Source of the DNA: Fidelibacterota bacterium
GTDB taxonomy: Bacteria > Fidelibacterota > Marinisomatia > Marinisomatales > UBA1611
NCBI GenBank assembly: GCA_018658715.1
Contig: JABHUQ010000004.1
Span: 1-32,060 of the forward strand
Direction: 5' to 3'
DNA length: 32,060 nt
Shown: piece by piece, positions 157 to 25,379 of the stretch
Layout: every line of letters begins with the position of its first letter
Position numbering within the stretch: position 1 is the stretch's first letter
Notes under the pieces: model-generated
What the model saw: the letters and a program-made list of their open reading frames with translations, nothing else
The model's database searches: none
Told to the model about the DNA's origin: nothing
Made by a program: the position numbers and the translations under genes

Positions 157-175
157 TAACACCATCATGGTGTTA
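157..175. terminator. Palindrome between convergent tRNA-Sec and the UpxY-like gene; possible bidirectional terminator
   Basis: TAACACCAT (157-165) and ATGGTGTTA (167-175) are perfect inverted 9-mers around one C. As RNA this folds as a 7-bp stem with a 5-nt loop. It sits where transcription of the + strand tRNA and the minus-strand antiterminator gene would meet, and its right arm includes the latter's stop codon. The U-rich tail is weak: on the minus strand the next bases are TATTTGCATTT, and on the plus strand there is none. An operator-type palindrome is the alternative. Confidence 0.4.
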
Positions 176-670
176 AGATGATTTGACAGACTTTAAATAA
201 CCCCTATGAATAGAGACAGAAACAGAATGTTGAATGGCATCCACTCGAACTAATAATCGGTCTTCTTTGTCAATTCGAATGACTTCACCTTCAATCCCTT
301 TCATGGCGCCTTCTCTGACTTCAACTTTATCCCCTTGAATAAAATAGTCCAATGGTTCTGGTGTATACCCACCTTCGATCAAAAGACGAAGGCTTTCAAT
401 CACCCTAGGGCTCACAATAGCAATTTCTTCACCAAACTTAATGAGTTTTACCACACCAGTTGTTTGTAATACAAATAGGCCTTCCTTTAATTCACATTGT
501 ACAAATAAATAAGATTTGAACAATGGAAATTCAACCCATTTCTTCCTATCACTCCACTTACGGCGTTCTTTTACAATTGGGAGATAAGTCTTAAATCCTT
601 TTTCCTCCAATGCCAACGCAGTGGTTTTTTCATGTCTTGGCTTTGTGTATATAGCAATCCAGTGTTTCAT
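173..670 (-). CDS. UpxY/RfaH-like NusG paralog, transcription antiterminator
   Basis: The 165-aa protein has the NusG architecture. An N-terminal NGN domain (about residues 3-100) opens with the motif WIAIYTKPRHEK and contains the FPLFKSYLF segment. A C-terminal KOW motif lies at about 113-133 (GDKVEVREGAMKG). Specialised NusG paralogs such as RfaH and Bacteroides UpxY ride with RNA polymerase and prevent early termination in long polysaccharide operons, and they usually lie at the head of the locus, as here. This copy is divergent from the operon, not its first gene, which is less usual. A housekeeping NusG would normally lie with secE/rplK, which are absent. The start ATG at 670 gives the expected N-terminus. 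No good Shine-Dalgarno site is visible upstream. Its recruitment sequence in the DNA is not recognisable to me. Confidence 0.85.
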   Translation of the reverse strand: MKHWIAIYTKPRHEKTTALALEEKGFKTYLPIVKERRKWSDRKKWVEFPLFKSYLFVQCELKEGLFVLQTTGVVKLIKFGEEIAIVSPRVIESLRLLIEGGYTPEPLDYFIQGDKVEVREGAMKGIEGEVIRIDKEDRLLVRVDAIQHSVSVSIHRGYLKSVKSS

Positions 671-739
671 ATTCTATCTAAAATTAAGAGTGTTAATTTA
701 ATGGTTATAACTTTTATTTATAGAAGATAAATATATCTG

Positions 740-795
740 TTTTGTTGATAATAAAAAATAATTTGTTTATAAAAATATAGCATTTTGTTGATAAT
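740..795 (+). repeat. Two 13-bp direct repeats flanking the promoter core, possible operator
   Basis: TTTTGTTGATAAT occurs at 740-752 and again, identical, at 783-795. The start-to-start distance is 43 bp, close to four helical turns, so both copies would face the same side of the DNA. The first covers the -35 element and the second lies just after the predicted transcription start. This is a typical layout for a repressor that binds two sites. The neighbouring HTH protein (816) is the obvious candidate binder, but this is inference. Confidence 0.4.
745..773 (+). promoter_or_regulatory. Sigma70-like promoter for the regulator at 816
   Basis: TTGATA (745-750) and TATAAA (768-773) are each one base from the -35/-10 consensus and are separated by exactly 17 bp. 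Transcription would begin near 780, leaving a leader of about 35 nt before the ATG at 816. The 671-815 region is very AT-rich, so chance matches are easier than usual. It is the only strong promoter-like pair I saw at the head of the + strand operon. Confidence 0.5.
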
Positions 796-815
796 GATTT
801 TAGATTAATCCTAGA

Positions 816-1835
816 ATGCAGTCCACTCAAATAAGAAAATTTATTCTAGATAACCTTTCAGAGCATCAGAAAGACATTGTAAGAGCATCCATCCGCAAGT
901 TTGGAATTTCTCGGCAAGGCATATTACGCCATCTAAATTCCCTTATACATGATGGGAAAGTAGCTGTACATGGTAAAACAAAAGATCGGTATTATGAAAT
1001 TATTCCAACTATCGATTTTTCTAAGTTGATTCCAATTTCAGATTCTATAAATGAAAATGATATCGGTGTAAAATATATTTTCCCCTATCTAAATCAACTA
1101 CCTAAAAATATTACAACCATTTGCGAATATGGATTTTCAAATGCATTTAATAATATTCTTTCACATTCGAATGCACATCATGCAACAATCGGGTTTAAGC
1201 AAACATCCCAATTAATTCAAATTACGATCCAGGATGATGGAATTGGATGTTTTGAAAATATTAAAGATGTATATGGGTTATCATCTAATTGGCAGGCCGT
1301 ATTCAACTTAGTAAAAGGGAAAACGACGGTTGCTCCAGATAAATATTTAGGAGAAAGTCTATTCTTTATTCTCCGATTATTTGATATTTGTAAAATTCAA
1401 GCCAACGGCCTATGTCTTACTAGAAAAGAAGGGCGACCAGAATGGGAGCTCAATGAATGTGATGAGAAACCAGGAACAAAAATAATGTTATTTATAAGCT
1501 CAAACTCCAAAAAAGATTTTTATTCAGAATTGGATGAATATTCAGTAGATATGGAGTCTCATAGATTCAATCGAACTATTTTACCCATTACATTATTATT
1601 AAAAAATGGTGAAAAATTAATGTCTCGTTCTCAGGCGCATGATGTATTGCGTGGTGTCAATTTATTCGAAGAAGTTTGTATAGATTTTCAATCTATTGAC
1701 TTTGTAAGTCCAACATTTATTGATGAAATATTTAGAGTATATGCTTTGTCCAATGAACAGATTCATTTCACGTGGAAAAATGCAATTCCAGTTGTGGAAA
1801 AAATGATTTGGCGTACCGTAAATAGGGATGACTAA
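816..1835 (+). CDS. Regulator with HTH, histidine-kinase-like ATPase and STAS-like (DUF4325) domains
   Basis: Three parts are visible in the 339-aa protein. Residues 1-60 resemble a winged helix (IRKFGISRQGILRHLNSL). Residues about 90-230 resemble a GHKL ATPase: an N-box around N109-N113 (NAFNNILSHSNA) and a G1 box D140-D141-G142-I143-G144. Residues about 245-335 resemble the DUF4325 STAS-like module (VCIDFQSIDFVSPTFIDEIF). There is no phospho-acceptor His and no sensor or membrane segment. GHKL ATPases paired with STAS domains are the logic of anti-sigma/anti-anti-sigma switches, here fused to a DNA-binding domain. It probably controls this locus or the divergent antiterminator, but the signal is unknown. 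The start ATG 816 lacks a clear Shine-Dalgarno site. Confidence 0.75.
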   Translation: MQSTQIRKFILDNLSEHQKDIVRASIRKFGISRQGILRHLNSLIHDGKVAVHGKTKDRYYEIIPTIDFSKLIPISDSINENDIGVKYIFPYLNQLPKNITTICEYGFSNAFNNILSHSNAHHATIGFKQTSQLIQITIQDDGIGCFENIKDVYGLSSNWQAVFNLVKGKTTVAPDKYLGESLFFILRLFDICKIQANGLCLTRKEGRPEWELNECDEKPGTKIMLFISSNSKKDFYSELDEYSVDMESHRFNRTILPITLLLKNGEKLMSRSQAHDVLRGVNLFEEVCIDFQSIDFVSPTFIDEIFRVYALSNEQIHFTWKNAIPVVEKMIWRTVNRDD

Positions 1836-1966
1836 CGGACAGTAAATTTCCCATTATTTTTGGGAATAATAGATTATTAGCCTTTTCAGTTCATGTGACT
1901 GACGGGGCGGAGCCTTGTCTGGTGCCACAGAAAAAAAATAATAAGATGAAAAAAGAAGCCACTTAA

Positions 1967-2773
1967 TTGACAGATTTGATTGATTTTCATAATCATGTGC
2001 TGCCGGCTGTAGATGATGGATCAAAGTCATTAGAGATGTCATTATCAATGCTTAGACATGCAGCAGATCAAGGAATAACAGATGTGGTAAATACAGTCCA
2101 TTATCAGCATCCAAAAGTTGAAACGGATGATATTTCCTATGATCGCATTTTTGATGAAACAAAAAAATTACAACTTTCGCTCGATAATGCTTCCATACCT
2201 ATCACGATTCATGTTGGGGCTGAAGTATTTTTTTTACCAAATTTGATGGATTTGGTTGATTGTAAATTGGCAACGATTGGGAATGGGAAATACATGTTGA
2301 TAGAATTTCTGCCACACTATATTCCGGAAAGTCAAAAAAAAGTATTATTCAATTTAAAAATGGCAGGAATTACTCCTATCATAGCCCACCCAGAAAGGTA
2401 TAGGGACGTTCAGCAAAATATAGACATGGTTAGAGATTGGTTGCGGGCAGGTTGTTTAATTCAGATTGATGCAGGAAGCATTTTAGGTCAATTAGGTTCT
2501 AAAGCTGAAGCTACTTCTCATGAAATACTCAAACTACAGTTATGTCAACTTATCGGATCGGATGCGCACGATAATCATAGACGGAATTTTTGTTTAGCAG
2601 ATGCAATTGAATATTGTAAATCCACTATTGATGAAAAATTTGCTAATGAAATTATAACCAATGCAAAAAAAGTTATTAGTGGAATAGATATTAGCCCTGA
2701 ATTTGGAGATGAACCCTACGATGGGAATACGTCATTGTGGTCAAAATTAAGTTCCCGGCTCAATTTGGGATGA
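1967..2773 (+). CDS. PHP-family tyrosine-protein phosphatase (CpsB/YwqE type)
   Basis: This is a metal-dependent protein-tyrosine phosphatase of the PHP fold, which dephosphorylates the BY-kinase encoded two genes downstream and so resets the polymerisation/export cycle. Metal-binding motifs are in family order: HNH (residues 8-10) followed by DDG, GAEVF near 84, HPERY near 141 and GSDAHD near 197. The TTG at 1967 is the chosen start because TAA (1964-1966) immediately precedes it in frame, and the next Met would delete the essential HNH motif. The 268-aa length is slightly above the usual 240-260, with a short extra C-terminal tail. The cytoplasmic phosphatase next to an SLBB protein and a Wzz-kinase is the standard genetic arrangement. 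Confidence 0.88.
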   Translation: MTDLIDFHNHVLPAVDDGSKSLEMSLSMLRHAADQGITDVVNTVHYQHPKVETDDISYDRIFDETKKLQLSLDNASIPITIHVGAEVFFLPNLMDLVDCKLATIGNGKYMLIEFLPHYIPESQKKVLFNLKMAGITPIIAHPERYRDVQQNIDMVRDWLRAGCLIQIDAGSILGQLGSKAEATSHEILKLQLCQLIGSDAHDNHRRNFCLADAIEYCKSTIDEKFANEIITNAKKVISGIDISPEFGDEPYDGNTSLWSKLSSRLNLG

Positions 2774-2847
2774 TGTTGGACAAAACCCCCTTTATCGGTA
2801 ACTTCCCCAGCTTTTTAATTAGTAGCAAATACATAAGAAAATCATGA
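2773..2847 (+). CDS. Possible 24-codon bridging mini-ORF (translational coupling)
   Basis: An ORF begins with ATG at 2773, overlapping the TGA of the phosphatase gene (TGATG). It runs 24 codons without a stop and ends with TGA at 2845-2847, overlapping the ATG of the SLBB gene (ATGA). The predicted peptide begins MLDKTPFIGNF and has no recognisable domain. It may couple translation across a 70-bp gap, may be a small protein, or may be chance. Nothing beyond the geometry supports expression. Confidence 0.22.
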   Translation: MLDKTPFIGNFPSFLISSKYIRKS

Positions 2848-3326
2848 AAAAACAATTCATAATCATATTTTTATTAATGGCTTGTGCCATGGGTCAAGTG
2901 GTACAAACAACTAAAGATTTTCAAGTATCAAGTGAGCGGTTCATTACAGGTGAGAATGGAAATATTTTCATGTTTGTTAATGTTTGGGGACATGTTAATA
3001 GTCCAGGAAGACATGCTGTGTATGATGGAATAGATATGGCAACCCTTCTTTCTACTGTTGGTGGGCCAAAAACAGGAGCGAATTTGAAAAAAGTGAGAGT
3101 ATTTCGTGAATTGCCGGATAATTCGGGACAGTTAACGTATACACTTAATTTAGATTCCTTCTTTAAAACGGGAGACCGATCGGCTTTTATTCAACTTAAA
3201 CCTAATGATACTCTCCTTATCCAACAAAAATGGTCCAATACAATCTTAAGTCAGGTTGGTGCACTGAATACAATTATGAGTATGATTAATCTGTACATCC
3301 AACTTGAAAACCTTGCAAATAAATAA
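2844..3326 (+). CDS. Secreted SLBB-domain polysaccharide export protein (short, no Poly_export domain)
   Basis: The 160-aa protein has a signal sequence (hydrophobic residues 5-13), then an SLBB domain at about 40-135 (VWGHVNSPGRHAVYDG, LLSTVGGPK and a closing LKPNDTLLIQQ). LMAC (11-14) could be a short lipobox with Cys14 as lipid anchor. A signal-peptidase I cut after AMG is the alternative. Wza-type outer-membrane exporters carry a Poly_export domain before one or more SLBB repeats. That domain is absent here, so this is an accessory SLBB protein or works with an exporter encoded elsewhere. Its stop overlaps the next start by one base (TAATG), so it is translationally coupled to the Wzz-kinase. 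Confidence 0.8.
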   Translation: MKKQFIIIFLLMACAMGQVVQTTKDFQVSSERFITGENGNIFMFVNVWGHVNSPGRHAVYDGIDMATLLSTVGGPKTGANLKKVRVFRELPDNSGQLTYTLNLDSFFKTGDRSAFIQLKPNDTLLIQQKWSNTILSQVGALNTIMSMINLYIQLENLANK

Positions 3327-5689
3327 TGAATAATCAATTACCAGCAAATTCAGAGTACCAATCTAATACTAACCTTATAACTGAAATGAGTTTGCAAGAT
3401 TATATAACAATCCTCAGAATCCATCTGAATAAAATTGTAATTATTATCTTATTTGGAATTGGCTATGCACTATATTATACTTATACAGTTCCTCCAACAT
3501 TCCATGCAACAGCGACTGTAATGGTTCGTGAAAAACCTGGTGCAAATATGATTATGGATTTTGGTGGGAATCGAAATATAGATCGCATGGTAAACGAAAT
3601 TCAACTTATAAAATCGCGTGTTTTAGCGAAGGAAGTTGTGAAAGCATTTTGGGAATCTGACCGGCGAAATAGGTTAAATATATTTGGTACAAGAAAATAT
3701 TTTCCAAAAGGATGGAGGGCAAGAGTTTTAATTAAAGAATTATTTTCCCTCGGACTATATGATGCAGGGTTGGATAAAGCTAATAAATATGATGAACCTT
3801 ATTCAGATGAAATTGGTAGTAGATTCGCCGGGAAAATATTGAAAGGACTATCTGTAAAAAATAATCGCTCTACAGATATATTGGAAATATCCTTTAATAG
3901 CGTGTATGCGGATGAGGCGCGGAGAGTAGCAGATAAAGTTGCGGAAACCTATGTGCGGATGGATAGGGAATGGGGTAGCGAAAATGCAATCCAGTCCGTT
4001 GACTTTTTAGAAAAATTAGTATTAGCTCAGGAAAAATCTCTCCATAAAGCAGAAGAAGAGATTAGAGATTATAAATCCACTGAAAAAATGTATGACCTAC
4101 AGGGGAATGCTGGATCCTTTTCTTCTCAGCTTACATCTGTACAGACAGAGATATATAATACGATTGCTGAAATCAATATTAAGAATGAAAAAACAGAATT
4201 TCTGAAATCTAGATTATCCCGTGAAGAAAAGAATTTAGCTAACCAATTACTCAGTAATATAAATATCCAGATGGTATCCTTAAGGGAAGAAATTGGGTTG
4301 CTCGAATCCCAATTAATACAAAATACTGTAACTTATGGTAAGGATCATAGTGCTGTTAAAGAACTTGTTTTAAAAATAAAAGCGTTGAAGAAACAACTGG
4401 ATCAAAAAGTAGGGACATTAATTTCTAAGGGTATAACAGTAGAAGATCCCTTACAAGCCAGGCAGGAAATTATAACTGATTTATTAACGTTAGATTCTGA
4501 AATATTAGGACTTGAACTAAAAAAAGCAGAAACAGAAAAATTAAAACTTATTTATGCTGAAAAATTAGGTGGCCTCCCACAAAAACAATTGGAATATGCA
4601 AGGCTTGAACGAAATTTATCCGTCCTAAATCAAAATTATTCATATGTGAGGCAAAAGCTGGAAGAAGCTAAAATACAACTCGCATCCCAAGCAGGTAAAG
4701 TTCAAATCCTTGATTTAGCACGCAGACCAGGAGCTCCTTCAAGCCCAGATCATAAAAGAAATTTATTAATGGGCATTATACTTGGTTTGGTAGCAGGTCT
4801 AGGCTTAGCCTTTCTTTTAGAATTTTTAGATAATACTGTTAAAACAGTTGATCATATTGAGAAACATCAATTATCAGTTTTAGGTATTATCCCTTCCATG
4901 GGTGAAGAAAAGATAAAAAAGAAAAAGAAACTACCCTTTCCAAGTAGTAAACAACGTTCAAAAAGTTCAAACCAAGGCCTAAGAAGACGCCTTATTACAA
5001 GGGAAGATCCACGCTCGCCTGTGTCTGAAGCTTATCGTAGTTTACGAACCAGTATGATGTATACGTCTGCAGATAAAAAAGTAAAATCTATTCTTATTTC
5101 CAGTGCAGGACCCGGTGAAGGGAAGACAACAACCGTAGCCAATTTGGCCATCACTTATGCAAATCTAGGTAAAAAAACTTTGTTAGTAGACACCGATTTA
5201 AGGCGACCTGTTATCCATAAAGTATTAGAAGCTAAAAAGGATCCGGGAATTACAAATTATTTGTCGGGTGCCACAGATGATTTTAATAGTTTAATCCAAA
5301 ATACATTAATTGATAATCTTTCAGTTGTCACATCTGGAATAATTCCACCAAACCCATCAGAATTATTAGGGTCAAAACGAATGTCTGATTTAGTTGCAAA
5401 ATTAGAATCTGAATGGGATATGATTTTATTTGATAGCCCACCCCTAGTTGCAGTGACAGATGCGACCATGGTTTCTAAAGAAATAGATCAAATCATTATA
5501 GTAGTAAAAGTAGGACAAACAGATAAAAAAGCCTTTAGCCACACAATTAATTCTCTACGAAATGTGAATGCACCACTTGGAGGTGTCATTCTGAATGCTG
5601 TAACACATAAAAATAGCTATGGATCCTACTATTATTATTACCAATATTATCATTATTATGGTAGTGATTCTGATTCAAAAATAGTGTAA
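3326..5689 (+). CDS. Wzz-type chain-length regulator fused to a BY tyrosine autokinase
   Basis: This 787-aa inner-membrane PCP/BY-kinase resembles Wzc/EpsB. A Wzz domain opens at about residue 20, with TM1 at about 36-54. A long periplasmic coiled coil spans about 230-460 and ends in a GNVR-like segment (PQKQLEYARLERNLSVLNQNY). TM2 at about 481-500 follows a Pro-rich stretch (RPGAPSSP). The cytoplasmic kinase has Walker A GPGEGKT (595-601, Lys600), A' motif VDTDLRRP (Asp622, Asp624) and Walker B LFDSPP (Asp703). The C-terminal tail carries ten tyrosines between 765 and 778, the autophosphorylation cluster. Cycles of phosphorylation, reversed by the PHP phosphatase, are known to control chain length and export in such systems. 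The full-length fused form is typical of Gram-negatives. Confidence 0.93.
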   Translation: MNNQLPANSEYQSNTNLITEMSLQDYITILRIHLNKIVIIILFGIGYALYYTYTVPPTFHATATVMVREKPGANMIMDFGGNRNIDRMVNEIQLIKSRVLAKEVVKAFWESDRRNRLNIFGTRKYFPKGWRARVLIKELFSLGLYDAGLDKANKYDEPYSDEIGSRFAGKILKGLSVKNNRSTDILEISFNSVYADEARRVADKVAETYVRMDREWGSENAIQSVDFLEKLVLAQEKSLHKAEEEIRDYKSTEKMYDLQGNAGSFSSQLTSVQTEIYNTIAEINIKNEKTEFLKSRLSREEKNLANQLLSNINIQMVSLREEIGLLESQLIQNTVTYGKDHSAVKELVLKIKALKKQLDQKVGTLISKGITVEDPLQARQEIITDLLTLDSEILGLELKKAETEKLKLIYAEKLGGLPQKQLEYARLERNLSVLNQNYSYVRQKLEEAKIQLASQAGKVQILDLARRPGAPSSPDHKRNLLMGIILGLVAGLGLAFLLEFLDNTVKTVDHIEKHQLSVLGIIPSMGEEKIKKKKKLPFPSSKQRSKSSNQGLRRRLITREDPRSPVSEAYRSLRTSMMYTSADKKVKSILISSAGPGEGKTTTVANLAITYANLGKKTLLVDTDLRRPVIHKVLEAKKDPGITNYLSGATDDFNSLIQNTLIDNLSVVTSGIIPPNPSELLGSKRMSDLVAKLESEWDMILFDSPPLVAVTDATMVSKEIDQIIIVVKVGQTDKKAFSHTINSLRNVNAPLGGVILNAVTHKNSYGSYYYYYQYYHYYGSDSDSKIV

Positions 5690-5769
5690 ACTTATATGAG
5701 TATTCCGGCATATAAATCGTTTATAAATACGTGAATTAATTTATCAACCTACTTAGAGACAATACAAAC

Positions 5770-7467
5770 ATGACAACACATACCGTATCAGAAACATTAA
5801 TGGTATCTGATCAAAATATCGAATTATTAAAAAAAGAATCATTCCACTATCCAGGATGGACCTTAACAGATCGCCAGATTTGTGACTTAGAATTATTGTT
5901 AAATGGGGGTTTTTCTCCATTAACAGGCTTTCTCGGCAAGGATGACTATGAGTCCGTACTAAGCCAAATGCGGCTTTCAACGGGCGAATTATGGACAATG
6001 CCAATCATACTAGATGTTACAACAGAATTTGCTGCACCTCTTTCTACGGGTGAAAAAATCACACTCCGTGATAAAGAAGGATTTGCATTGGCTGTACTTA
6101 CAATTTCTGATATTTGGCAGCCAAATAAAATTGATGAAGCACAAGCTGTTTTTGGAACAACAGATGATACACATCCTGCTGTAAATTATTTAATGAATGT
6201 GAGTCACCCAATTTATATTGGTGGGTCTTTAGATGGAATTAGTTTACCGCACCATTATGATTACCAAGCCCTCAGACATACACCTACAGAATTAAAAGAA
6301 AAATTTGAATCATTAGGTTGGGATAAAATTGTAGCTTTCCAAACTAGGAATCCTCTCCACAGAGCTCATGTCGAAATGACAATGAGAGCATCTGATGAAT
6401 TAGGAGCATCTTTATTGGTTCATCCAGTTGTTGGATTAACAAAACCGGGGGATGTTGATCATTATACTCGTGTTCGTTGTTATGAACATGTGATGGAAAA
6501 ATATCCCGAAAATTCTGCTGAATTAAGTTTACTTCCGCTAGCAATGAGAATGGGTGGTCCTAGAGAAGCTGTTTGGCATGCACAGATACGAAAAAATTAT
6601 GGTTGTACACATTTAGTCGTTGGTCGTGATCATGCAGGACCGGGAAATGACAAAGATGGGAATCCATTTTATGGACCTTATGATGCTCAAGAATTGCTTG
6701 AAAAACATAAGGATGAAATTGGGATTGAAATGGTTCCATTTAAATTTATGGTATATTTACCTGAGTCTGATTCCTATACACCGATTGACGAAGTACCGAA
6801 AGGTGTGGAATATCAGACCATCTCTGGGTCTCAACTTCGCCAATTATTAGATGAAGGGAAAGGGGTCCCTGAATGGTTCACTTATCCTGAAGTTGCAAAA
6901 GAATTAGAATTATCTAGACCACCACTTATTGAACGTGGATTTACCATTTTTTTTACAGGGTTATCCGGGTCGGGTAAATCCACTTTAGCTAACGGATTAC
7001 TTGTGAAATTGCTAGAACAAGGCAGTCGCCCTGTCACATTATTAGACGGGGACATTGTAAGAACACATTTATCCAGTGAATTAGGATTTTCCAAAGAACA
7101 TCGTTCACTCAATGTCCAGCGAATAGGATTTGTTGCAAGTGAAATCACAAAGAATGGTGGAATTGCCATTTGTGCCCCAATCGCTCCATATACAGCGGAT
7201 CGTAGATTTAACAGAGAGTTGATTTCTAAATTAGGTGGATATGTAGAAATATTTGTTTCCACACCTCTTGAAAAATGTGAAGAAAGGGATGTGAAGGGTT
7301 TATATGAATTAGCACGAAAAGGCGTTATTAAAGAATTCACTGGAATTTCCGATCCTTACGAAATTCCTGAAAATGCTGAAATTGTGATTAATTCCAGTGG
7401 AGAAGCACCTGAAATACTTGTGGACCAGATTTACCAAAAAATCCAAGAATTAGGGTATATTAAATAG
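5770..7467 (+). CDS. sat/cysC: Bifunctional ATP sulfurylase / APS kinase (PAPS synthesis)
   Basis: This 565-aa fusion converts sulfate and ATP to adenosine 5'-phosphosulfate and then phosphorylates it to PAPS. The N-terminal ATP sulfurylase (about 1-390) has QTRNPLHRAH (191-200) and GRDHAGPG (285-292). The C-terminal APS kinase has P-loop GLSGSGKST (397-405, Lys403), LLDGDIVRTHL, and the conserved ICAPIAPY segment. Sat-then-CysC fusions are known in Aquifex and scattered bacteria. No cysH or cysI for sulfate reduction lies nearby, while a PAPS-type sulfotransferase lies downstream at 20287. PAPS for glycan sulfation is therefore the most likely role (inference). It starts a precursor-supply block after an 80-bp gap in which I saw no clear promoter. 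Confidence 0.94.
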   Translation: MTTHTVSETLMVSDQNIELLKKESFHYPGWTLTDRQICDLELLLNGGFSPLTGFLGKDDYESVLSQMRLSTGELWTMPIILDVTTEFAAPLSTGEKITLRDKEGFALAVLTISDIWQPNKIDEAQAVFGTTDDTHPAVNYLMNVSHPIYIGGSLDGISLPHHYDYQALRHTPTELKEKFESLGWDKIVAFQTRNPLHRAHVEMTMRASDELGASLLVHPVVGLTKPGDVDHYTRVRCYEHVMEKYPENSAELSLLPLAMRMGGPREAVWHAQIRKNYGCTHLVVGRDHAGPGNDKDGNPFYGPYDAQELLEKHKDEIGIEMVPFKFMVYLPESDSYTPIDEVPKGVEYQTISGSQLRQLLDEGKGVPEWFTYPEVAKELELSRPPLIERGFTIFFTGLSGSGKSTLANGLLVKLLEQGSRPVTLLDGDIVRTHLSSELGFSKEHRSLNVQRIGFVASEITKNGGIAICAPIAPYTADRRFNRELISKLGGYVEIFVSTPLEKCEERDVKGLYELARKGVIKEFTGISDPYEIPENAEIVINSSGEAPEILVDQIYQKIQELGYIK

Positions 7468-7481
7468 CCCAAGATTTAACA

Positions 7482-8444
7482 ATGAAAAAAATATGTGTTG
7501 TTGGCGCTGGTCGTTGGGGCAAGAACCATATTCGTACATTAGATAGTCTTGGTTGTTTGGGAGGAATTGTAGAATCTAATCCTGAGGAACAAAAAGCATT
7601 TCAATTATCTTATCCGGAAATGCCCGTTTATTCTAACATTAAGGATGCATTTCAGGATAGTTTTGATGGGTTCACTTTAGCCACCCCTGCAGAGACGCAT
7701 CTTGAGTTGGGACTCACTATAATGAGTGAAGGATACTCGGTACTTATCGAAAAACCACTCGCTCTAAATCCTGCAGATGCAAAACTTCTTGTAGAAAAAG
7801 CAGATGAAATGGATGTAACATTAATGGTAGGGCATGTTTTATTATTTCATCCAGCCATTCGAAAAATGAAATCACTCATTGATGAAGGTAGAATCGGGGA
7901 TATTCAATATATTTACAGTAATCGATTGAATCTAGGTACTGTCCGTAAGGAAGAAAATGTTTTTTGGAGTTTTGCCCCTCATGATATTTCTATTTTTCAA
8001 TATTTTATTGAATCTGAACCAATAAAAGTATCGTCTAATGGGGCTGCATTTTTACAAGATAATATTTATGATACATCTTTAACGTCTTTAACATATGCAA
8101 ATAATATCCATGGTCATATATTTGTCAGTTGGTTACACCCATTCAAAGAGCATAGGTTGGTGGTCTCCGGGAGTAAAGGTATGATTCGTTTCGAAGATTC
8201 AGCAGAAAATAAACCATTGATGATTTATGATAAAGGGATTGATTGGATTGAAGGGAATCCTGTAAAACGAGATGGGCCTGCAGAATTGGTACCATACGAA
8301 TCAAACATGCCGTTAACGGAAGAATTAAAATATTTTATAAACCATTTGAAAAAAAGGCCACAAATAGCCAATGGAAAAAATGGGATCGAAGTTGTAAAAA
8401 TTCTTAATAAAGCATCTGAGTCCATGTTAGGAAAAACACCATGA
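7482..8444 (+). CDS. Gfo/Idh/MocA-family NAD(P) oxidoreductase, WbpB-like
   Basis: The 320-aa protein has an N-terminal Rossmann fold with VVGAGRWGKNH (6-16), the family motif EKPLAL (about 90-95) and a downstream HDIS near 167, the position of the catalytic His region. Its gene overlaps the next one by 4 bp (ATGA). The partner is a WbpD-like N-acetyltransferase. In known pathways WbpB oxidises UDP-GlcNAcA at C3, an aminotransferase (WbpE) acts, and WbpD then acetylates. The pairing suggests UDP-2,3-diacetamido-uronic acid synthesis, but the WbpE-type aminotransferase and the 6-dehydrogenase WbpA are not in this window, so the substrate is inferred. Confidence 0.82.
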   Translation: MKKICVVGAGRWGKNHIRTLDSLGCLGGIVESNPEEQKAFQLSYPEMPVYSNIKDAFQDSFDGFTLATPAETHLELGLTIMSEGYSVLIEKPLALNPADAKLLVEKADEMDVTLMVGHVLLFHPAIRKMKSLIDEGRIGDIQYIYSNRLNLGTVRKEENVFWSFAPHDISIFQYFIESEPIKVSSNGAAFLQDNIYDTSLTSLTYANNIHGHIFVSWLHPFKEHRLVVSGSKGMIRFEDSAENKPLMIYDKGIDWIEGNPVKRDGPAELVPYESNMPLTEELKYFINHLKKRPQIANGKNGIEVVKILNKASESMLGKTP

Positions 8445-9010
8445 GTGCAAACCCGTACATACATGAATCAAGTTATGTTGACGATAATGTATCTTTAGGC
8501 AATGGAACTAAAATATGGCATTTTTCTCATATTCAATCAGGAACTGTGATTGGGGAGAATTGCAGTGTTGGCCAGAACGTTAATGTCGGAAATAACGTCA
8601 AAATTGGAAATGGCGTTAAGATACAGAATAATGTATCTGTGTATGAAGGTGTTGAGTTAGAAGATTATGTATTTTGTGGACCATCCATGGTTTTTACAAA
8701 TGTCAAATTACCTAGGTCTGAATTCCCCCAACGGGGATCTGAATTTTATGCTAAAACATTGGTTAAAAAATCAGCATCCATTGGTGCAAATGCAACCATT
8801 ATCTGTGGAACTACGATTGGAGAATATGCTTTAATTGGTTCTGGTTCAGTTGTAACGATAGATATTCCACCCCATGCTCTTGTTGTAGGAAATCCTGGAA
8901 AAATTATTGGATGGGTTGATAAGAAAGGCCATAAACTCACTTTTAATGATAGTGGACTTTCGGAATGTAAAAAATATAGGCTAAAAGATAGCCTACTCGA
9001 AGTTTTATAA
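8441..9010 (+). CDS. Left-handed beta-helix N-acetyltransferase, WbpD-like
   Basis: The 189-aa protein is built of hexapeptide repeats ([LIV]-G-x4 pattern, for example VIGENCSVGQNVNVGNNV), with SIGANATIICGTTIGEYALIG near the C-terminal part and the family ending VVGNPGKIIGWV. It uses acetyl-CoA to acetylate an amino-sugar nucleotide. The length and the fused 4-bp overlap with the WbpB-like dehydrogenase point to UDP-2-acetamido-3-amino-uronate acetyltransferase (WbpD). Other sugar O- or N-acetyltransferases of the same fold remain possible. The gene ends shortly before a probable terminator. Confidence 0.82.
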   Translation: MSANPYIHESSYVDDNVSLGNGTKIWHFSHIQSGTVIGENCSVGQNVNVGNNVKIGNGVKIQNNVSVYEGVELEDYVFCGPSMVFTNVKLPRSEFPQRGSEFYAKTLVKKSASIGANATIICGTTIGEYALIGSGSVVTIDIPPHALVVGNPGKIIGWVDKKGHKLTFNDSGLSECKKYRLKDSLLEVL

Positions 9011-9030
9011 TGTATAAATAGGGTTAGGAC

Positions 9031-9067
9031 AATTTCACGATTGTGAAGTTAGTAATTTTTATTTTTT
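9031..9067 (+). terminator. Probable intrinsic terminator after the WbpD-like gene
   Basis: AATTTCAC (9031-9038) pairs with GTGAAGTT (9043-9050), an 8-bp stem with one G-T pair and a GATT loop. It is followed after four bases by a T-rich tract (9055-9067, twelve T in thirteen). The stem is AT-rich, so termination may be partial. It separates the sulfate/WbpB-WbpD block from galE, whose own promoter I could not identify. Confidence 0.5.
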
Positions 9068-9092
9068 CGTAAATAAGTGATTTAATTTAAAT

Positions 9093-10079
9093 ATGAAAAA
9101 TAAACAAATTCTCATTACAGGTGGAGCAGGGTATATTGGTTCCCACGTTGTATTAGCATTATGTGATTCAGGGTATGATGTAACTGTATTTGATGATTTA
9201 TCTCTTGGATTTCGTTCGAATGTGGATGATAGGGCAAATTTTGTACAAGGTTCCACACTTGATCAAGTTGCTTTAAAACATGTTTTTTCTCAACATTTTG
9301 ATGCAGTCATCCATTTAGCTGCATTTAAAGCCGCAGGGGAATCTATGATTCACCCACAAAAGTACTCCACAAACAATATAAATGGAACAGTAAATCTTTT
9401 GAATGCAATGGTTGAAGCGGATGTGAAGCACTTTATTTTTTCATCCACTGCTGCTGTATATGGATTTCCAAAATATTTACCTGTTGACGAAAATCATCCA
9501 CTCAAACCAATCAATTATTATGGATATACAAAATTATTTGTTGAGCAATTATTGGATTGGCATTCCAACTTGAAAAATATATCTTTTGCGGCACTTAGAT
9601 ATTTTAATGCAGCTGGATATGATGAAAAGGGACGTATCCCTAACAAAGAAAAAAATCCTGCAAATTTATTACCCATTGTTATGGAAGTAGCAAGTGGAAT
9701 GCGTGATTCAATGGCAGTTTTTGGAAATGATTATTCTACACATGATGGTACAGGTGTTCGGGATTATATCCATGTGACTGATTTAGCAACAGCTCATGTA
9801 AAAGCGTTGGAATATTTAATGAATTCAAAAAAGAATTTGACCGTCAATTTGGCCACAGGAGTAGGCTATTCAGTCTTGGATGTCATAAAAATGGCTGAAA
9901 AGATAACTGGGGAATCAATTCAATACACACTTGTGGCTCGACGACCAGGTGACCCAGATGAACTTATAGCAATGTCAGCTATTGCAGAACAAAAACTTCA
10001 ATGGACACCTGAACATTCTAATTTAGAAACACTCCTAAAAACGATGTGGGTATTGTATTCCAAAGAGAAATTAATATGA
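9093..10079 (+). CDS. galE: UDP-glucose 4-epimerase
   Basis: This extended SDR protein of 328 aa interconverts UDP-glucose and UDP-galactose (possibly also the N-acetyl forms). The NAD-binding motif [10 protein letters not shown] (9-18) is followed by DDLSLGF, the catalytic Ser/Thr region FSSTAAVYG (about 116-124) and Tyr143-x3-Lys147 (YGYTK). The RYFNAAG and [11 protein letters not shown] segments are classical GalE markers. The length is near the usual 330-340. Its TGA overlaps the next start (ATGA at 10076), so the two epimerase/decarboxylase genes are coupled. Confidence 0.92.
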
Positions 10080-11014
10080 TGGATAGAAAAAAAATTCTTG
10101 TTACTGGTGGAGCTGGTTTTATTGGTTCTCATTTGTGTCAAAAATTATTAGATCAAGGCCATGAGATCATTTGTGTAGATAATTTATTTACAGGATCAAA
10201 ACAAAATATAGAACCACTACTTGATAACAATAGGTTCGAATTTATTCGCCATGATGTAACATTTCCTTTATCTCTTGAGATTGATCAAATATATAACCTA
10301 GCTTGCCCAGCAAGCCCATTACATTATCAACATGACCCCGTACAGACCATTAAAACAAGTGTACATGGGGCTATAAATATGCTTGAGCTAGCAAAAAGGA
10401 CAAGTGCAAGAATTCTTCAAGCATCTACATCTGAAGTGTATGGTGACCCGACAGTTCACCCTCAACCAGAATCTTATGTTGGGAGTGTAAACCCTATTGG
10501 ACCAAGAGCATGTTATGATGAAGGGAAACGTGCTGCAGAAACACTCTTCTTTGATTATCATCGACAACACGAAATTGATATACGAGTCGTTAGAATATTT
10601 AATACATATGGACCAAAAATGGCAATGAATGATGGTAGGGTTGTTTCTAATTTTATCATTCAAGCATTAAATAATAAACCCATAACTTTATTTGGCGATG
10701 GAAAACAGACACGTTCTTTTTGTTATGTGGACGATTTAGTTGATGGCTTGATCAATATGATGAATCAAAATAAGATAGTTGGACCGGTTAATATTGGAAA
10801 TCCAGAAGAAATAACCATATTTGAATTGGCAAATGAAATAATAGAACTTACAGATTCAAATAGCGATATTAGTTTTAACTCTTTACCCAAAGATGATCCA
10901 ATGCAAAGGCAGCCAGATATTCAATTAGCCAGGAAAATATTACAATGGGAACCATTAGTCTATCGATATGATGGCCTTAAAAAAACTATCGATTATTTTT
11001 CAACAAAAATATAA
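10076..11014 (+). CDS. uxs: UDP-glucuronate decarboxylase (UDP-xylose synthase)
   Basis: The enzyme converts UDP-glucuronate to UDP-xylose. Diagnostic segments are [10 protein letters not shown] (11-20 from this start), [21 protein letters not shown], the catalytic Tyr147-x3-Lys151 ([10 protein letters not shown]) and [10 protein letters not shown], all characteristic of the UXS family and not of other SDRs. I chose ATG 10076, which overlaps the galE stop, or equally the adjacent ATG 10079. An upstream in-frame ATG at 10046 would add ten residues inside galE that do not belong to the family. The product is 312 aa, the usual length for bacterial UXS. No UDP-glucose 6-dehydrogenase is in the window to supply the substrate. 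Confidence 0.92.
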
Positions 11015-11053
11015 ATACAATCATAATCTAAACTTTTTAGTGGAGACTAATCT

Positions 11054-11722
11054 ATAGAAACTTATAATCAAAAAAAGAAGTTTTTAAATATAGGATGTGG
11101 GAGTAATCCAATTGATGGTTTTGTTAATTATGATTACAATATTTTTATATTCTTAGCAAAAATCCCTTTCTTGAATATACTGTTGTCTAAAATTCAAATT
11201 ATCCCCAAGCCATTTATTCAGTTTATGGAAATTGTCAAAAAAGATAATATTCAATATTGTAACGCATACAGGAAAATACCTGAGAGTGAAAATTCGGTCG
11301 ATTTGATTTACACATGCCATATGTTAGAGCATTTAGATCCGAAAGAGTCAGAGAAATTTTTAAAGGAATGTAAACGGGTACTGAAAAAAGATGGAATATT
11401 GAGAATTGTTGTTCCTAGTTTTGAAATATTGATCAAGAACTATCAACAAAATAAAAATGTTGATATATTTATTGAAGAAAGCTGCCTTGTCGGAGAGAAG
11501 CCCAAAACATTTATTAAAAAGCTACAATATCTTATACAAGGTCATGGATGGCATCATCAAATGTTTACTGAAAACTCATTGAAAAAAAAATTAGAGATTG
11601 CTGGATTTAGAAACATTACAAATTTTACGGAAGGTAATTCAAATATTCCCTATAAAAACAATATTAATTATGCCGATTTTGCTAGCAAAAGTATATGTTG
11701 TGAATGTACAAATGATTCATAG
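11054..11722 (+). CDS. SAM-dependent methyltransferase (type 11) with apparent ATA start
   Basis: The SAM-binding motif I (FLNIGCGSNP) is encoded at about 11081-11110, upstream of the first conventional start in frame (TTG 11171), so the real gene must begin earlier. The frame is open only back to the TAA at 11048-11050, and the one start-like codon between is ATA at 11054, preceded by GGAG (11042-11045) with 8-nt spacing. From there the product is 222 aa, normal for these glycan-cluster methyltransferases, with the TCHMLEHLDP motif and KRVLKKDGILRIVVPS. It probably methylates a sugar hydroxyl or a nucleotide-sugar. Either AUA initiates or the assembly carries an ATG-to-ATA error. Confidence 0.75.
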   Translation: METYNQKKKFLNIGCGSNPIDGFVNYDYNIFIFLAKIPFLNILLSKIQIIPKPFIQFMEIVKKDNIQYCNAYRKIPESENSVDLIYTCHMLEHLDPKESEKFLKECKRVLKKDGILRIVVPSFEILIKNYQQNKNVDIFIEESCLVGEKPKTFIKKLQYLIQGHGWHHQMFTENSLKKKLEIAGFRNITNFTEGNSNIPYKNNINYADFASKSICCECTNDS

Positions 11723-21065: not shown

Positions 21066-21782
21066 ATGCTAATTAACATATCTAAGATATATCATTTCTT
21101 GATTTACTATTTATTTTTTTTAATATTTTATAAAAAGAAATTAGTTAAAAAGGAGAAACCTAAAAATATAGTAAATTATTTATTTAGTGAAAATTTATCC
21201 TACATCACTCCTTGGCAACAAAAAGATGAACTAATAAATCTAGCAGAAGTTGTCGACAAGCGATCCCCAAAAGTTATTCTTGAAATAGGAACTGCTAGAG
21301 GTGGTACATTATTATTATGGGCAAGAATTTGTAGCTCAAATGCTATCATTATTTCTATTGATTTACCTGGTGGAAACTTTGGAGGTGGTTATCCAGTATA
21401 TAAGTCCATTCTTTACAAGTCATTTAAGCAGAAAAACCAAATCATTAAATTGATTCGTAGTGATTCACACTCAGAGTATACATTATCAAAAGTTAAAAAA
21501 ATACTTAACGGTAAAAAAATTGATTACTTATTTATCGATGGTGACCATTCTTATCATGGTGTAAAAAAAGATTATCATCAATATAAAAGCTTATGCTCCA
21601 CAGATGCGATCATTGGAATTCATGATATCAATATTGATAATAGGAGTCCTCGGCAAATTTTTGTTTCTGATTTTTGGGATGAGATTAAAAATCAGTACAA
21701 AACAAAGGAATTGTTTTCAATTGAAAATGTGAATGCTATGGGTATTGGAGTTATATACTATGGAAAAAATCATACAGGTTAG
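21066..21782 (+). CDS. CmcI-like class I methyltransferase with N-terminal hydrophobic helix
   Basis: The 238-aa protein has VILEIGTARGGTLLLW (about 70-85), SIDLPGG, and FIDGDHSYHGVKKDYHQY, the pattern of the cephalosporin-hydroxylase (CmcI)/Methyltransf_24 group, most members of which are SAM-dependent sugar or small-molecule methyltransferases. Residues 8-24 (IYHFLIYYLFFLIFY) form a probable membrane anchor followed by a Lys-rich stretch, so the enzyme may sit on the inner face of the membrane. Its TAG (21780-21782) is in the same frame as, and 3 bp before, the next gene. A 15-codon ORF ends on the start codon (TAATG). Confidence 0.75.
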   Translation: MLINISKIYHFLIYYLFFLIFYKKKLVKKEKPKNIVNYLFSENLSYITPWQQKDELINLAEVVDKRSPKVILEIGTARGGTLLLWARICSSNAIIISIDLPGGNFGGGYPVYKSILYKSFKQKNQIIKLIRSDSHSEYTLSKVKKILNGKKIDYLFIDGDHSYHGVKKDYHQYKSLCSTDAIIGIHDINIDNRSPRQIFVSDFWDEIKNQYKTKELFSIENVNAMGIGVIYYGKNHTG

Positions 21783-21785
21783 AAT

Positions 21786-23210
21786 ATTCTTTTCAATTCG
21801 GTAGAATATTTTATCTTCCTAATCGTTGTTTTTTCATGTTATTGGGCTCTAAATAATAAAAAAATAGTTTATCAAAATGCTGTTATTTTGATTAGCAGCT
21901 ATATCTTTTACGGTTGGTGGGATTGGAGATTCTTATCACTTATATTTGCGTCAACTTATGTTGACTATTTTACTGGGCATTATATATTTAATAGTTCGTC
22001 AAGAAAAGATAAAAGAAAATATCTAGGCATTAGTATTGTATTCAATTTAGGTTTATTAGGCTTATTTAAATATTTTAATTTTTTCATTGATTCGTGGGTT
22101 TCATTATTAAATACTTTTGGTTATGAACTAAATAACTTATGGTCATTAAATATAATTTTACCAGTTGGTATATCATTTTATACTTTCCAAACAATGTCGT
22201 ACAGTTTAGATATTTTTTATAAGAAGATAGAACCCACAAAAGATTTCATATCTTTCGCATCTTTTGTCAGTTTTTTTCCTCAATTAGTGGCGGGCCCTAT
22301 TGAGAGAGCTTCGAATCTTCTACCTCAGATGCTAAATAAAAGGAAATTTGATTATTATGACTCTGTCATTGGATTGAGGTTAATGCTTTGGGGAATGTTT
22401 AAAAAGGTGGCTATAGCTGATAGCTTAAGTCCTACGGTAGATTATATTTTTCAAAATTATACGAATCTTGATGGAGGTGTTTTAGCTCTTGGATTAATTT
22501 ATTTTTCATTTCAAATCTATTGCGATTTTAGTGGTTATTCTGATATCGCCATTGGAACAGCTAAACTTTTTGGATTTAAACTATCTTCAAATTTCAAGTT
22601 TCCTTACTTTTCTAGAAACATTGGTGAGTTTTGGAAGAGATGGCATATCTCACTTTCGTCTTGGTTTAGAGATTATTTATATATCCCAATGGGTGGCTCT
22701 AAAGGGTCTATGGCTCAAAATATAAAAAATATTTTTATAATATTTATTATTAGTGGTTTTTGGCATGGTGCAAGTTGGAATTTTATAATATGGGGTTCAT
22801 TTCACTCGATTCTTTTTTTACCAATATTTATCTATGGAACTAATAAAAAATATGGAGTTGATGTAATTGCAAAGGATTCTTTTTTACCAACATTTATTGA
22901 TTTAATAAAAGTATTGGCAACCTATATTTCTACCACAATCGCATGGGTATTTTTCAGAAGCGATAGCATTTATGACAGTTTTTTATATCTAGCATTAATG
23001 TTAAAAAATTTATCAATTCCGAACACAAGTCGTTTTGGATTATTATATGTTTTGATCATAGTATTATTTGATTGGAATTTTCGTCAAAATGAACAAAACC
23101 CACTCAGTTTCAAATCAAAAATAACCAGATATACTGTTTATTATATATTATTGATAATGATAGTTCTAAACATTCATTCCGGAGAACAATTCATATATTT
23201 TCAATTCTAA
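21786..23210 (+). CDS. MBOAT O-acyltransferase (AlgI-like), apparent ATT start
   Basis: AlgI-like MBOAT proteins pass acyl groups across the inner membrane for polysaccharide O-acetylation. Hallmarks here are FWKRWHISLSSWFRDYLYIP, the MGGSKGS turn and SGFWHGASWNFIIWG with the conserved His, plus many transmembrane helices. The first ordinary start (TTG 21888) would cut off about 34 residues. In frame upstream lies ILFNSVEYFIFL, which matches the usual AlgI N-terminus (M)LFNSxEF, with ATT at 21786 where Met should be and AGG (21776-21778) seven bases before it. The frame is closed by TAG at 21780. The product is 474 aa, a normal length. AUU initiation or a sequence error would both explain this. 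Confidence 0.88.
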   Translation: MLFNSVEYFIFLIVVFSCYWALNNKKIVYQNAVILISSYIFYGWWDWRFLSLIFASTYVDYFTGHYIFNSSSRKDKRKYLGISIVFNLGLLGLFKYFNFFIDSWVSLLNTFGYELNNLWSLNIILPVGISFYTFQTMSYSLDIFYKKIEPTKDFISFASFVSFFPQLVAGPIERASNLLPQMLNKRKFDYYDSVIGLRLMLWGMFKKVAIADSLSPTVDYIFQNYTNLDGGVLALGLIYFSFQIYCDFSGYSDIAIGTAKLFGFKLSSNFKFPYFSRNIGEFWKRWHISLSSWFRDYLYIPMGGSKGSMAQNIKNIFIIFIISGFWHGASWNFIIWGSFHSILFLPIFIYGTNKKYGVDVIAKDSFLPTFIDLIKVLATYISTTIAWVFFRSDSIYDSFLYLALMLKNLSIPNTSRFGLLYVLIIVLFDWNFRQNEQNPLSFKSKITRYTVYYILLIMIVLNIHSGEQFIYFQF

Positions 23211-23295: not shown

Positions 23296-24237
23296 TTGTC
23301 AAAGATAAAATTTATTTTAAGGGCTGTCATATTTTTTCTTCCAATAATACTATTGATCATAGCCATAGAATTATATATCACATATGGAGAGAGTAGTTTT
23401 GCTAATAAAGCAAACCATTTGAAAGATAATTTAGGAAATATAGAAATATTAATATTAGGTTCGAGCCGTACCCAGAATTCTATAAATCCAGAATTATTAA
23501 GTATGAAATCGGCGAACCTTGCATATGCAAACCAAGACTACATGATAAATGCAGCTATATTTTCTCATTATGTGGATAAACTAGAAAAGCTAAGATATGT
23601 AATCTTGGAATTAGATTATTTATCACTTTTACATGGGACTAAAAGTGATTATTTTAGAATACCATGGTACTATAGGTACCATAGTATAAATATTAATGAC
23701 ATCTCAAACATAGAAAAAATTTCATTACTATTTTCATCCCCAGATTATTTCAAAAAAATTATAAATAGACAAATCTATGATATAGACAATAAAGTAGAAG
23801 TAAATAAATATGGGTTTTTTAATAATAATTATTCAGGTCCATTTCATAAAATTAGGTATGATAGTACTTTAGTTAAACCAAGCAAATATTTAACAAATTT
23901 CCATAATAATTATGAAAATGATAATTATATTGATAATGTGAATTATTTAAAGTCAATTATAAATCACTGTCAAAAAATATCACTGCCAATAATATTTATA
24001 AAAAATCCTGTTTATAAAACATTTTATAATGGATATGATCCAATTTTGATGAAAAAAATTCTTGAGACTGAGGATAGTCTAATAAATAATTTAACAAATG
24101 TACATGTATTTAATTTTGAAAATTATTTTCCTAACAAAATTCACTACTATATAGATGAGCAACATTTGAATTCTCAAGGTGCATTATTACTTACATCGCA
24201 ATTTGAAGAAGAATTAAATATATTACAATTGCAATAA
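23296..24237 (+). CDS. Membrane-anchored SGNH/GDSL-like protein, possible O-acylation partner
   Basis: The 313-aa protein has a single N-terminal membrane segment (about 8-26, VIFFLPIILLIIAIELY). Its body starts with LGSSRTQNSINP (54-65), a GDSx-like nucleophile Ser block, and has DEQHLN near 287-290 as the Asp-x2-His pair. This pattern resembles DltD/AlgX-like periplasmic partners that follow MBOAT genes. Identification is by motif only. It would face the periplasm. The TTG at 23296 is the sole workable start that keeps the hydrophobic helix at the N-terminus. Confidence 0.6.
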   Translation: MSKIKFILRAVIFFLPIILLIIAIELYITYGESSFANKANHLKDNLGNIEILILGSSRTQNSINPELLSMKSANLAYANQDYMINAAIFSHYVDKLEKLRYVILELDYLSLLHGTKSDYFRIPWYYRYHSININDISNIEKISLLFSSPDYFKKIINRQIYDIDNKVEVNKYGFFNNNYSGPFHKIRYDSTLVKPSKYLTNFHNNYENDNYIDNVNYLKSIINHCQKISLPIIFIKNPVYKTFYNGYDPILMKKILETEDSLINNLTNVHVFNFENYFPNKIHYYIDEQHLNSQGALLLTSQFEEELNILQLQ

Positions 24238-24317: not shown

Positions 24318-25379
24318 ATGGATAAATCAATCTCATCGTTCTTTGTAAAAATATTAATATTTATTTTCGGGGCATTCATGATTCTTCTCGTTGCAGAAAC
24401 AGCCATATCTCCCACAGTATATACATTCAGAGTTTGGGAAGCATTACAAAGAAAGAGTCGACTATTTATAGGCCCTTTTTATCCTAATAGTAAGATTTCC
24501 ATGTTGGAACAAGGTGGATTGGCATACTATACAAAATTTGCAGTGGAAAAACCAGTAATGTGGCAAACAGACTCTTTTGGTTATAGAAATAATTCAAATC
24601 CTATGAATCCCAAAATAATTTTGTTAGGGGATTCATTTATTGCGGGTTCGTCACTTGATCAAAAAGATCTATTATCTGTCAGATTGCAAAATCAAATCGA
24701 TAAAGAAGTATATAATATTGCGCCAGGAACGATTAATGACTTTATTGCTTTGAGAGAATCTAAATTGTTCGGATCACCTGAGTTAATAATTTTAAGTGTC
24801 ATAGAAAGAAATTTGGTTAAGTTAAGAAAAATCAATCGTGAATCAAAAATCAGGTATTTTAATTTCAGGGTGAATAGATGCTTTACTCAAATTGCAACAG
24901 TAGTTGATAAAATATTAAGATATAATTCCATTTCATTTTTGAAGGCACGATTAGAGGGTAAAAAAGGGACTGGGTATCAGTCTCAAAATAATCCGAATCA
25001 ATATTTTTTAAGAAAAAATATTAATAATAAGTCTAACCTTAGTTATACAAAAATAAACAACTTGGTAGATATTCTTTATCAGTATAAACTTTATTGTGAG
25101 AGTATAAATACTGATTTTTTATTTATGGTTATTCCAAATAAAAGTACTATTCATTGGGAAGATGCCGGATTTATTAATAAACCAAGAAATATAAATAAAT
25201 TAAATAATGCATTGTTAGAAGCGAATATTCCATTTATTAATGTAGATAGTATCGTGACTCAATTGAATGTGAGCGGAGGGCAACCATATCATTTAGATGA
25301 TACTCACTGGAATGGGACATCTACGCATATGATTTCAATAGAAATTAGTAAAGTTATTGATAGATTTAGTAAAAGATAA
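24318..25379 (+). CDS. AlgJ/AlgX-like SGNH O-acetyltransferase partner
   Basis: The 353-aa protein has an N-terminal transmembrane helix (about 8-27), then ILLGDSFIAGSS (Asp105-Ser106 as the GDS block) and near the C-terminus LDDTHWNG (Asp328, His330). GDSF together with DxHWN is the signature of AlgX/AlgJ periplasmic acetyltransferases that act with AlgI-type MBOAT proteins. With the MBOAT gene (21786) and the SGNH-like gene (23296) it forms an O-acylation cassette. Acceptor sugar and acyl group are unknown. A 7-codon ORF ends on its start codon (TAATG). Confidence 0.78.
   Translation: MDKSISSFFVKILIFIFGAFMILLVAETAISPTVYTFRVWEALQRKSRLFIGPFYPNSKISMLEQGGLAYYTKFAVEKPVMWQTDSFGYRNNSNPMNPKIILLGDSFIAGSSLDQKDLLSVRLQNQIDKEVYNIAPGTINDFIALRESKLFGSPELIILSVIERNLVKLRKINRESKIRYFNFRVNRCFTQIATVVDKILRYNSISFLKARLEGKKGTGYQSQNNPNQYFLRKNINNKSNLSYTKINNLVDILYQYKLYCESINTDFLFMVIPNKSTIHWEDAGFINKPRNINKLNNALLEANIPFINVDSIVTQLNVSGGQPYHLDDTHWNGTSTHMISIEISKVIDRFSKR

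Follow-up and report, generated by a model that had tools for sequence, protein, structure and literature searches.

Near-cognate start codons in described systems

Passages of a study on Staphylococcus aureus (PMC13009471) describe start codons that differ from AUG at the third position in ordinary genes, AUU in cvfC1 and AUA in ccpN and citZ, which give about 10% of the reporter expression of AUG in poor medium and, for ccpN, up to 30% in rich medium; the same passages give AUA as the start of S. aureus infC. A GTC start in Streptomyces sigR is described in part of another report (PMC5472188) as repressed by IF3 within a demonstrated regulatory circuit that is conserved in the genus, and autoregulation of infC is described there with ATT in E. 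coli and ATC in Streptomyces. In E. coli, ribosomes are known to reinitiate close to a stop codon, and extra IF3 lowers this reinitiation (PMC2268962).

The locus analysed here has an ATT where a gene for an MBOAT-family O-acyltransferase would be expected to start. An AUU start in this gene would belong to a rare class of weak start signals that has been described before. It resembles the S. aureus genes in being a third-position near-cognate codon in an ordinary gene; however, as those passages present them, cvfC1 and ccpN have conserved starts preceded by extended Shine–Dalgarno (SD) sequences, whereas the ATT is unconserved and follows a 4-nt core. Like the sigR start it would be missed by annotation, but the sigR passages concern another codon (GTC) and a demonstrated circuit conserved in the genus. 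The infC gene offers a comparison within the same genome, with an ATH start, an SD upstream and the end of the upstream gene close by, as at the MBOAT gene. The two differ in that every one of the 39 infC loci read across the order has ATH, behind a strong AGGAGG SD in this genome, whereas for the MBOAT gene ATT was found in this genome alone, its SD is average and no regulatory role is known for it.

An ATT codon at the conserved start of an MBOAT gene

The window, the whole 32,060-nucleotide stretch of DNA that was analysed, is contig C86 of a genome of 2.46 Mb in 115 contigs (G000) and has a G+C content of 31%. Positions 21786..23210 (plus strand) encode an AlgI-like O-acyltransferase that matches Pfam PF03062 (6.4e-24, 85.3 bits against a cut-off of 27) and aligns with its homologues from residue 1. 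The protein contains FWHGASWN, whose histidine, residue 327 counted from the ATT, we take to be the conserved histidine of MBOAT O-acyltransferases. The frame is open for 474 codons from the ATT at 21786-21788 to a stop at 23208-23210, with no other lesion, and its beginning reads ..ATACAGGT TAG AAT ATT CTT TTC AAT TCG GTA GAA TAT TTT... The TAG (21780..21782, plus strand) ends the upstream gene 3 nt before the ATT and in the MBOAT frame, and an SD-like AGGT with a 4-nt core lies 6 nt before the ATT (21776..21779, plus strand).

The homologues came from a set of 150 relatives, 12 of which (this genome included) gave a match, and from the best 80 of at least 576 confirmed relatives in genome_contigs. 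In 97 of the 106 BLAST rows a codon aligned with residue 1, the nine omitted rows beginning further inside the protein: ATG in 80, TTG in 8, GTG in 7 and ATT in 2, where both ATT rows (L002, L003) are the window's own locus and the genome's own second MBOAT, with ATG, is entered twice (L001, L015). Conservation of the ATT was absent from these relatives (the best 80 of at least 576 from genome_contigs), the other 95 of 97 rows having ATG, GTG or TTG. Among the matches listed, the closest are G003 (ATG), Aurantibacter crassamenti (ATG) and G014 (TTG), and the gene has no match in two genomes of the same genus, G001 and G002 (89% and 92% complete).

No canonical in-frame start is compatible with the conserved N-terminus. 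Between the ATT and a TTG at 21888..21890 (plus strand), 34 codons downstream, there is no in-frame ATG, GTG or TTG, and a start at that TTG, which falls after conserved residues 3-31, would cost residues 1-34. An alignment of 61 homologues shows no variation at F3, S5, F11, W20 and N31 and 98% conservation at Q30, and this protein keeps all six residues. The placement of the start at the ATT is therefore sound, because the starts of homologues align there and a start at 21888 would drop invariant residues. The initial annotation had placed an ATT start directly after the previous stop, with seven bases (21779-21785) separating it from an AGG (21776-21778), and had read ILFNSVEYF as the usual N-terminus with ATT replacing the ordinary start codon; every element of that description agrees with what we find.

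The gene thus shares with AlgI/MBOAT surface-polysaccharide O-acyltransferases the Pfam domain, the N-terminal (M)LFNSxEF, the FWHG motif and an AlgX-like neighbour (a weak match), and differs from them in its start codon. Elsewhere the genome carries a second member of this MBOAT family (G000:C102:7778-9220), which begins with an ordinary ATG, and one of the homologues collected (L010, G061:C47) carries an internal TAG.

Start context and neighbouring genes

The upstream gene (21066..21782, plus strand) encodes a Methyltransf_24/RMNT_CmcI-type methyltransferase, according to Pfam. Downstream, 23296..24237 (plus strand) lacks a Pfam match and is a probable surface-polysaccharide acetylation partner, judged from its position, and 24318..25379 (plus strand) is an AlgX-like SGNH gene, the likely acetylation partner of the MBOAT protein, whose match to PF16822 (2.1e-05, 24.8 bits) falls below the 26.5-bit cut-off. 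Window positions 165-10920 match contig C11 of G001 (359,060 bases of G001 compared), which beyond the match continues into sequence found on contigs C23 and C9 of this genome. The remainder, 10920-32060, is probably a variable sugar-coat region.

The SD of the MBOAT gene is average: among the 298 canonical starts of this genome its duplex energy of -3.7 ranks at the 51st percentile, and one as good is found at 47% of those starts and in 27% of shuffled upstream sequences. A strong or extended SD is absent at this start, which has the AGGT core.

Since the upstream gene and the MBOAT gene share a reading frame, with a TAG and a single codon between them, read-through of the TAG could in principle join them into a methyltransferase-MBOAT fusion. 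We consider this extremely improbable: no homologue looks fused, the 97 rows each having an in-frame stop at a distance of 0-132 nt ahead of the start, and the same explanation applied to the ATA methyltransferase described below would demand that two stops be read through.

A second candidate in the window

The initial annotation also referred to an ATA case, which we took to be the ATA at 11054-11056, the putative start of a class I methyltransferase, ETYNQKKKFLNIGCGSN (11054..11722, plus strand; Methyltransf_11, 2.7e-10). An SD-like GGAG lies 8 nt before it (11042..11045, plus strand), and the first canonical codon, TTG 11171, falls after SAM motif I. In the one close homologue found among 130 genomes of the order (G026, 48% identity), an ATG precedes that motif by a nearly equal distance. 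The ATA appears to be the most sensible choice of start, with the thin support that one homologue gives.

Survey of start codons across the genome

The survey set 918,488 bases of this genome against 1,118,261 bases of G001, using reciprocal pairs filtered on codon score; homology surveys without this filter were swamped by shadow ORFs. A stricter criterion proved unsuitable, since the DNA ahead of a gene is also conserved where genes overlap, and a looser test was used. Among 312 orthologue pairs with comparable N-termini, 288 passed this test automatically and 24 were flagged and judged by eye. A plausible canonical start was present on the side of this genome in 310 of the 312 pairs, by a test that would miss a non-canonical start with a canonical codon nearby by chance. 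The first canonical codon of the 312 frames, which is not always the true start, is ATG in 236, TTG in 50 and GTG in 26.

The two genes of this genome that lack a plausible canonical start are infC and one encoding an aminotransferase with a Tat signal; on the G001 side infC alone was seen without one. Putative non-canonical starts amount to 2 of 312 pairs, infC being one, together with the two in the non-syntenic part of the window. A codon-usage scan upstream of first canonical starts (324 predicted genes, 428,064 bases) gave a weak signal, in which the MBOAT gene ranks seventh and infC is absent among the 45 matches listed.

The aminotransferase gene (L240, G000:C37 about 40884-42305, minus strand) has a putative ATA start where its G001 orthologue has ATG, the two N-termini aligning as IKNSTFTRR and MKQPSVTRR. 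No canonical codon occurs in it until after the twin-arginine motif, and in each of eight other close homologues (L295-L302) a canonical codon stands just ahead of that motif. The C-terminal tail is FlgD/T9SS-like.

All four ATH sites, in the MBOAT, methyltransferase, aminotransferase and infC genes, have an SD core of at least 4 nt. Measured against the 298 canonical starts, the SD energies of the methyltransferase and aminotransferase fall in the best quarter and that of infC in the best 2%. At the three putative ATH starts other than that of infC, a same-strand stop is found 3, 12 and 39 nt upstream, while infC is overlapped by the gene that precedes it. These three starts also share their frame with the upstream stop (11014/11054, 21782/21786 and L240 17683), for which the chance is 1 in 27.

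The initial annotation had read the MBOAT start, with the ATA case, as a hint of relaxed start selection in this organism, to be dropped if the pattern were absent elsewhere. Since ATA also occupies the start position of the aminotransferase and infC genes, the pattern does recur and that ground for dropping the reading does not apply; against its extension to the organism as a whole are the plausible canonical starts in 310 of 312 pairs and an IF3 of full length. A genome-wide relaxation of start choice is no more than a possibility.

Constraint on the N-termini

The ATT could instead mark a recent loss of the start codon, ATG having changed to ATT in a decaying surface-polysaccharide locus and leaving the MBOAT gene silent or truncated from TTG 21888, a truncation that would remove the invariant F3, S5, F11, W20 and N31. 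The lack of a match to the gene in G001 and G002 and its position outside the part of the window syntenic with G001 fit such decay, as do features of the protein itself. Its relative N-terminal conservation is 0.872 against a median of 1.028, the second lowest of 62 sequences, which hints at a slightly relaxed constraint on this part of the alignment; at position 13 it has I where 92% have P. Over its whole length its unique changes outnumber those of each of four partners (e.g. 43 versus 18). However, the changes on its own branch show no significant N-terminal excess over the rest of the protein in comparisons with the four partners (Fisher p 0.43, 1.0, 1.0 and 1.0). A decay specific to the MBOAT N-terminus, hinted at by one conservation measure, was not adopted, the relative-rate counts being non-significant.

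The aminotransferase gene bears on the same question. Compared with G001, its codons 2-26 hold 9 nonsynonymous and 4 synonymous changes and the rest of the gene 42 and 128, so that nonsynonymous changes make up 9 of 13 in the N-terminus and 42 of 170 elsewhere. This excess, which would favour start loss, could reflect relaxed constraint or the usual fast evolution of signal peptides, and the relative-rate count for this gene was not significant (p 1.0 and 0.21). Against start loss, the MBOAT frame is fully open with no other lesion, and two further genes show a similar third-position change while infC itself begins with ATA here. On balance we regard a recent loss of the MBOAT start as rather unlikely.

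Assembly quality

An assembly error, which the initial annotation had raised as the alternative to relaxed start selection, would make the true MBOAT codon an ATG miscalled in the consensus of a fragmented genome, and the 115 contigs make this worth weighing. We aligned G001 proteins to the DNA of this genome and obtained 23 ORFs flagged for internal stops or frameshifts, of which 20 have a low or negative coding score or are shadows of genes with a stronger signal, one is unclear (L283, 229 residues with stops, coding score 21.7) and two are real genes with frameshifts (L133 against L263 and L184 against L290). The two frameshifts point to some error or decay. In the reverse direction the DNA of G001 gave 39 stops and one frameshift, a count unsorted by coding score.

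From two frameshifts and at most one gene with stops in 110,929 aligned codons, we estimate that substitution errors occur at a rate no higher than about 1e-4 to 4e-4. By this estimate about 0.3 to 1 damaged starts would be expected in roughly 850 genes (918 kb), against three seen. With so few disruptions over the aligned codons, an error rate able to hit three start codons is unlikely; each of the three changes alters the third position and yields an ATH codon, a type already known to serve as a start. We therefore judge an assembly error unlikely.

infC and IF3

The infC start was read locus by locus in 39 loci from 39 genomes, out of 80 genomes with a match, the same gene being present in loci L148-L156 and L098-L127. 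Behind a strong SD, the start codon is ATH in all 39: ATC in 21, ATT in 9 and ATA in 9, the last comprising this genome and eight others read from its family. The infC of this genome (G000:C42, L148 minus) has ATA, as do those of G001 and G002, and no canonical codon before the IF3 domain. Two loci have a canonical codon after the SD, a TTG about 2 nt behind it and so too close in L152, and a TTG inside the conserved domain in L154. Four others (L099, L104, L124 and L153) have an in-frame canonical codon upstream of the SD with the frame open, and a longer product is possible in these.

These ATH starts fit the infC autoregulation described above for E. coli and Streptomyces, and the ATA of infC is the usual sign of working IF3 discrimination. 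Inspection of infC, which the initial annotation had proposed as a check on relaxed start selection, yielded an ATA start behind an SD and an IF3 that is full length and aligns with a solved IF3 over residues 7-168 of 170, which would argue against a broken start-fidelity system. Gene callers would miss the infC start.

Proposed initiation at the MBOAT AUU

The ATT stands where homologues have their start codons, ahead of an intact frame, and ATA recurs at start positions elsewhere in the genome. The reading we favour, to which we give a probability of about 0.6, is that of an intact MBOAT gene whose translation begins, by a real but weak initiation, at the AUU in positions 21786-21788. The initiator Met-tRNA would pair with two bases of the AUU and mispair at the third; since it would read the codon despite this mispair, residue 1 should be methionine and not isoleucine. 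Initiation would be weak and positioned by the AGGU motif, ribosomes that terminate on the TAG of the preceding gene, 3 nt before the AUU, may help to place it through termination-reinitiation, and IF3 would be expected to restrain it. The ATT may have arisen from an ancestral ATG by a third-position change, or from GTG or TTG by more steps, within a variable surface-polysaccharide locus, and the outcome would be a low level of a putative O-acetylation enzyme.

A broader proposal is that the lineage tolerates and recurrently evolves AUA and AUU starts in ordinary genes through coupling to upstream stops and not through strong SDs, with surface-polysaccharide and export genes held at an IF3-dependent low expression linked to the AUA of infC; we find this improbable. 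Should several genes of the lineage really use such starts, these starts would form a natural set for the study of near-cognate starts without a strong SD, and for asking whether the level of IF3 tunes the modification of surface sugars. Because gene callers usually accept only ATG, GTG and TTG, the MBOAT protein would be annotated 34 residues short and the Tat protein without its export signal. A literature search conducted without the organism's name recognised no report of AUU or AUA starts in this lineage.

A mutant initiator tRNA was also considered. ARAGORN, run on 57 stretches of this genome outside the window, predicted one tRNA-Met(CAT), elongator and initiator not being told apart, and nothing follows for this idea because the sample is partial. 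The same run predicted a selenocysteine tRNA on a small contig (L170:12-107, minus strand).
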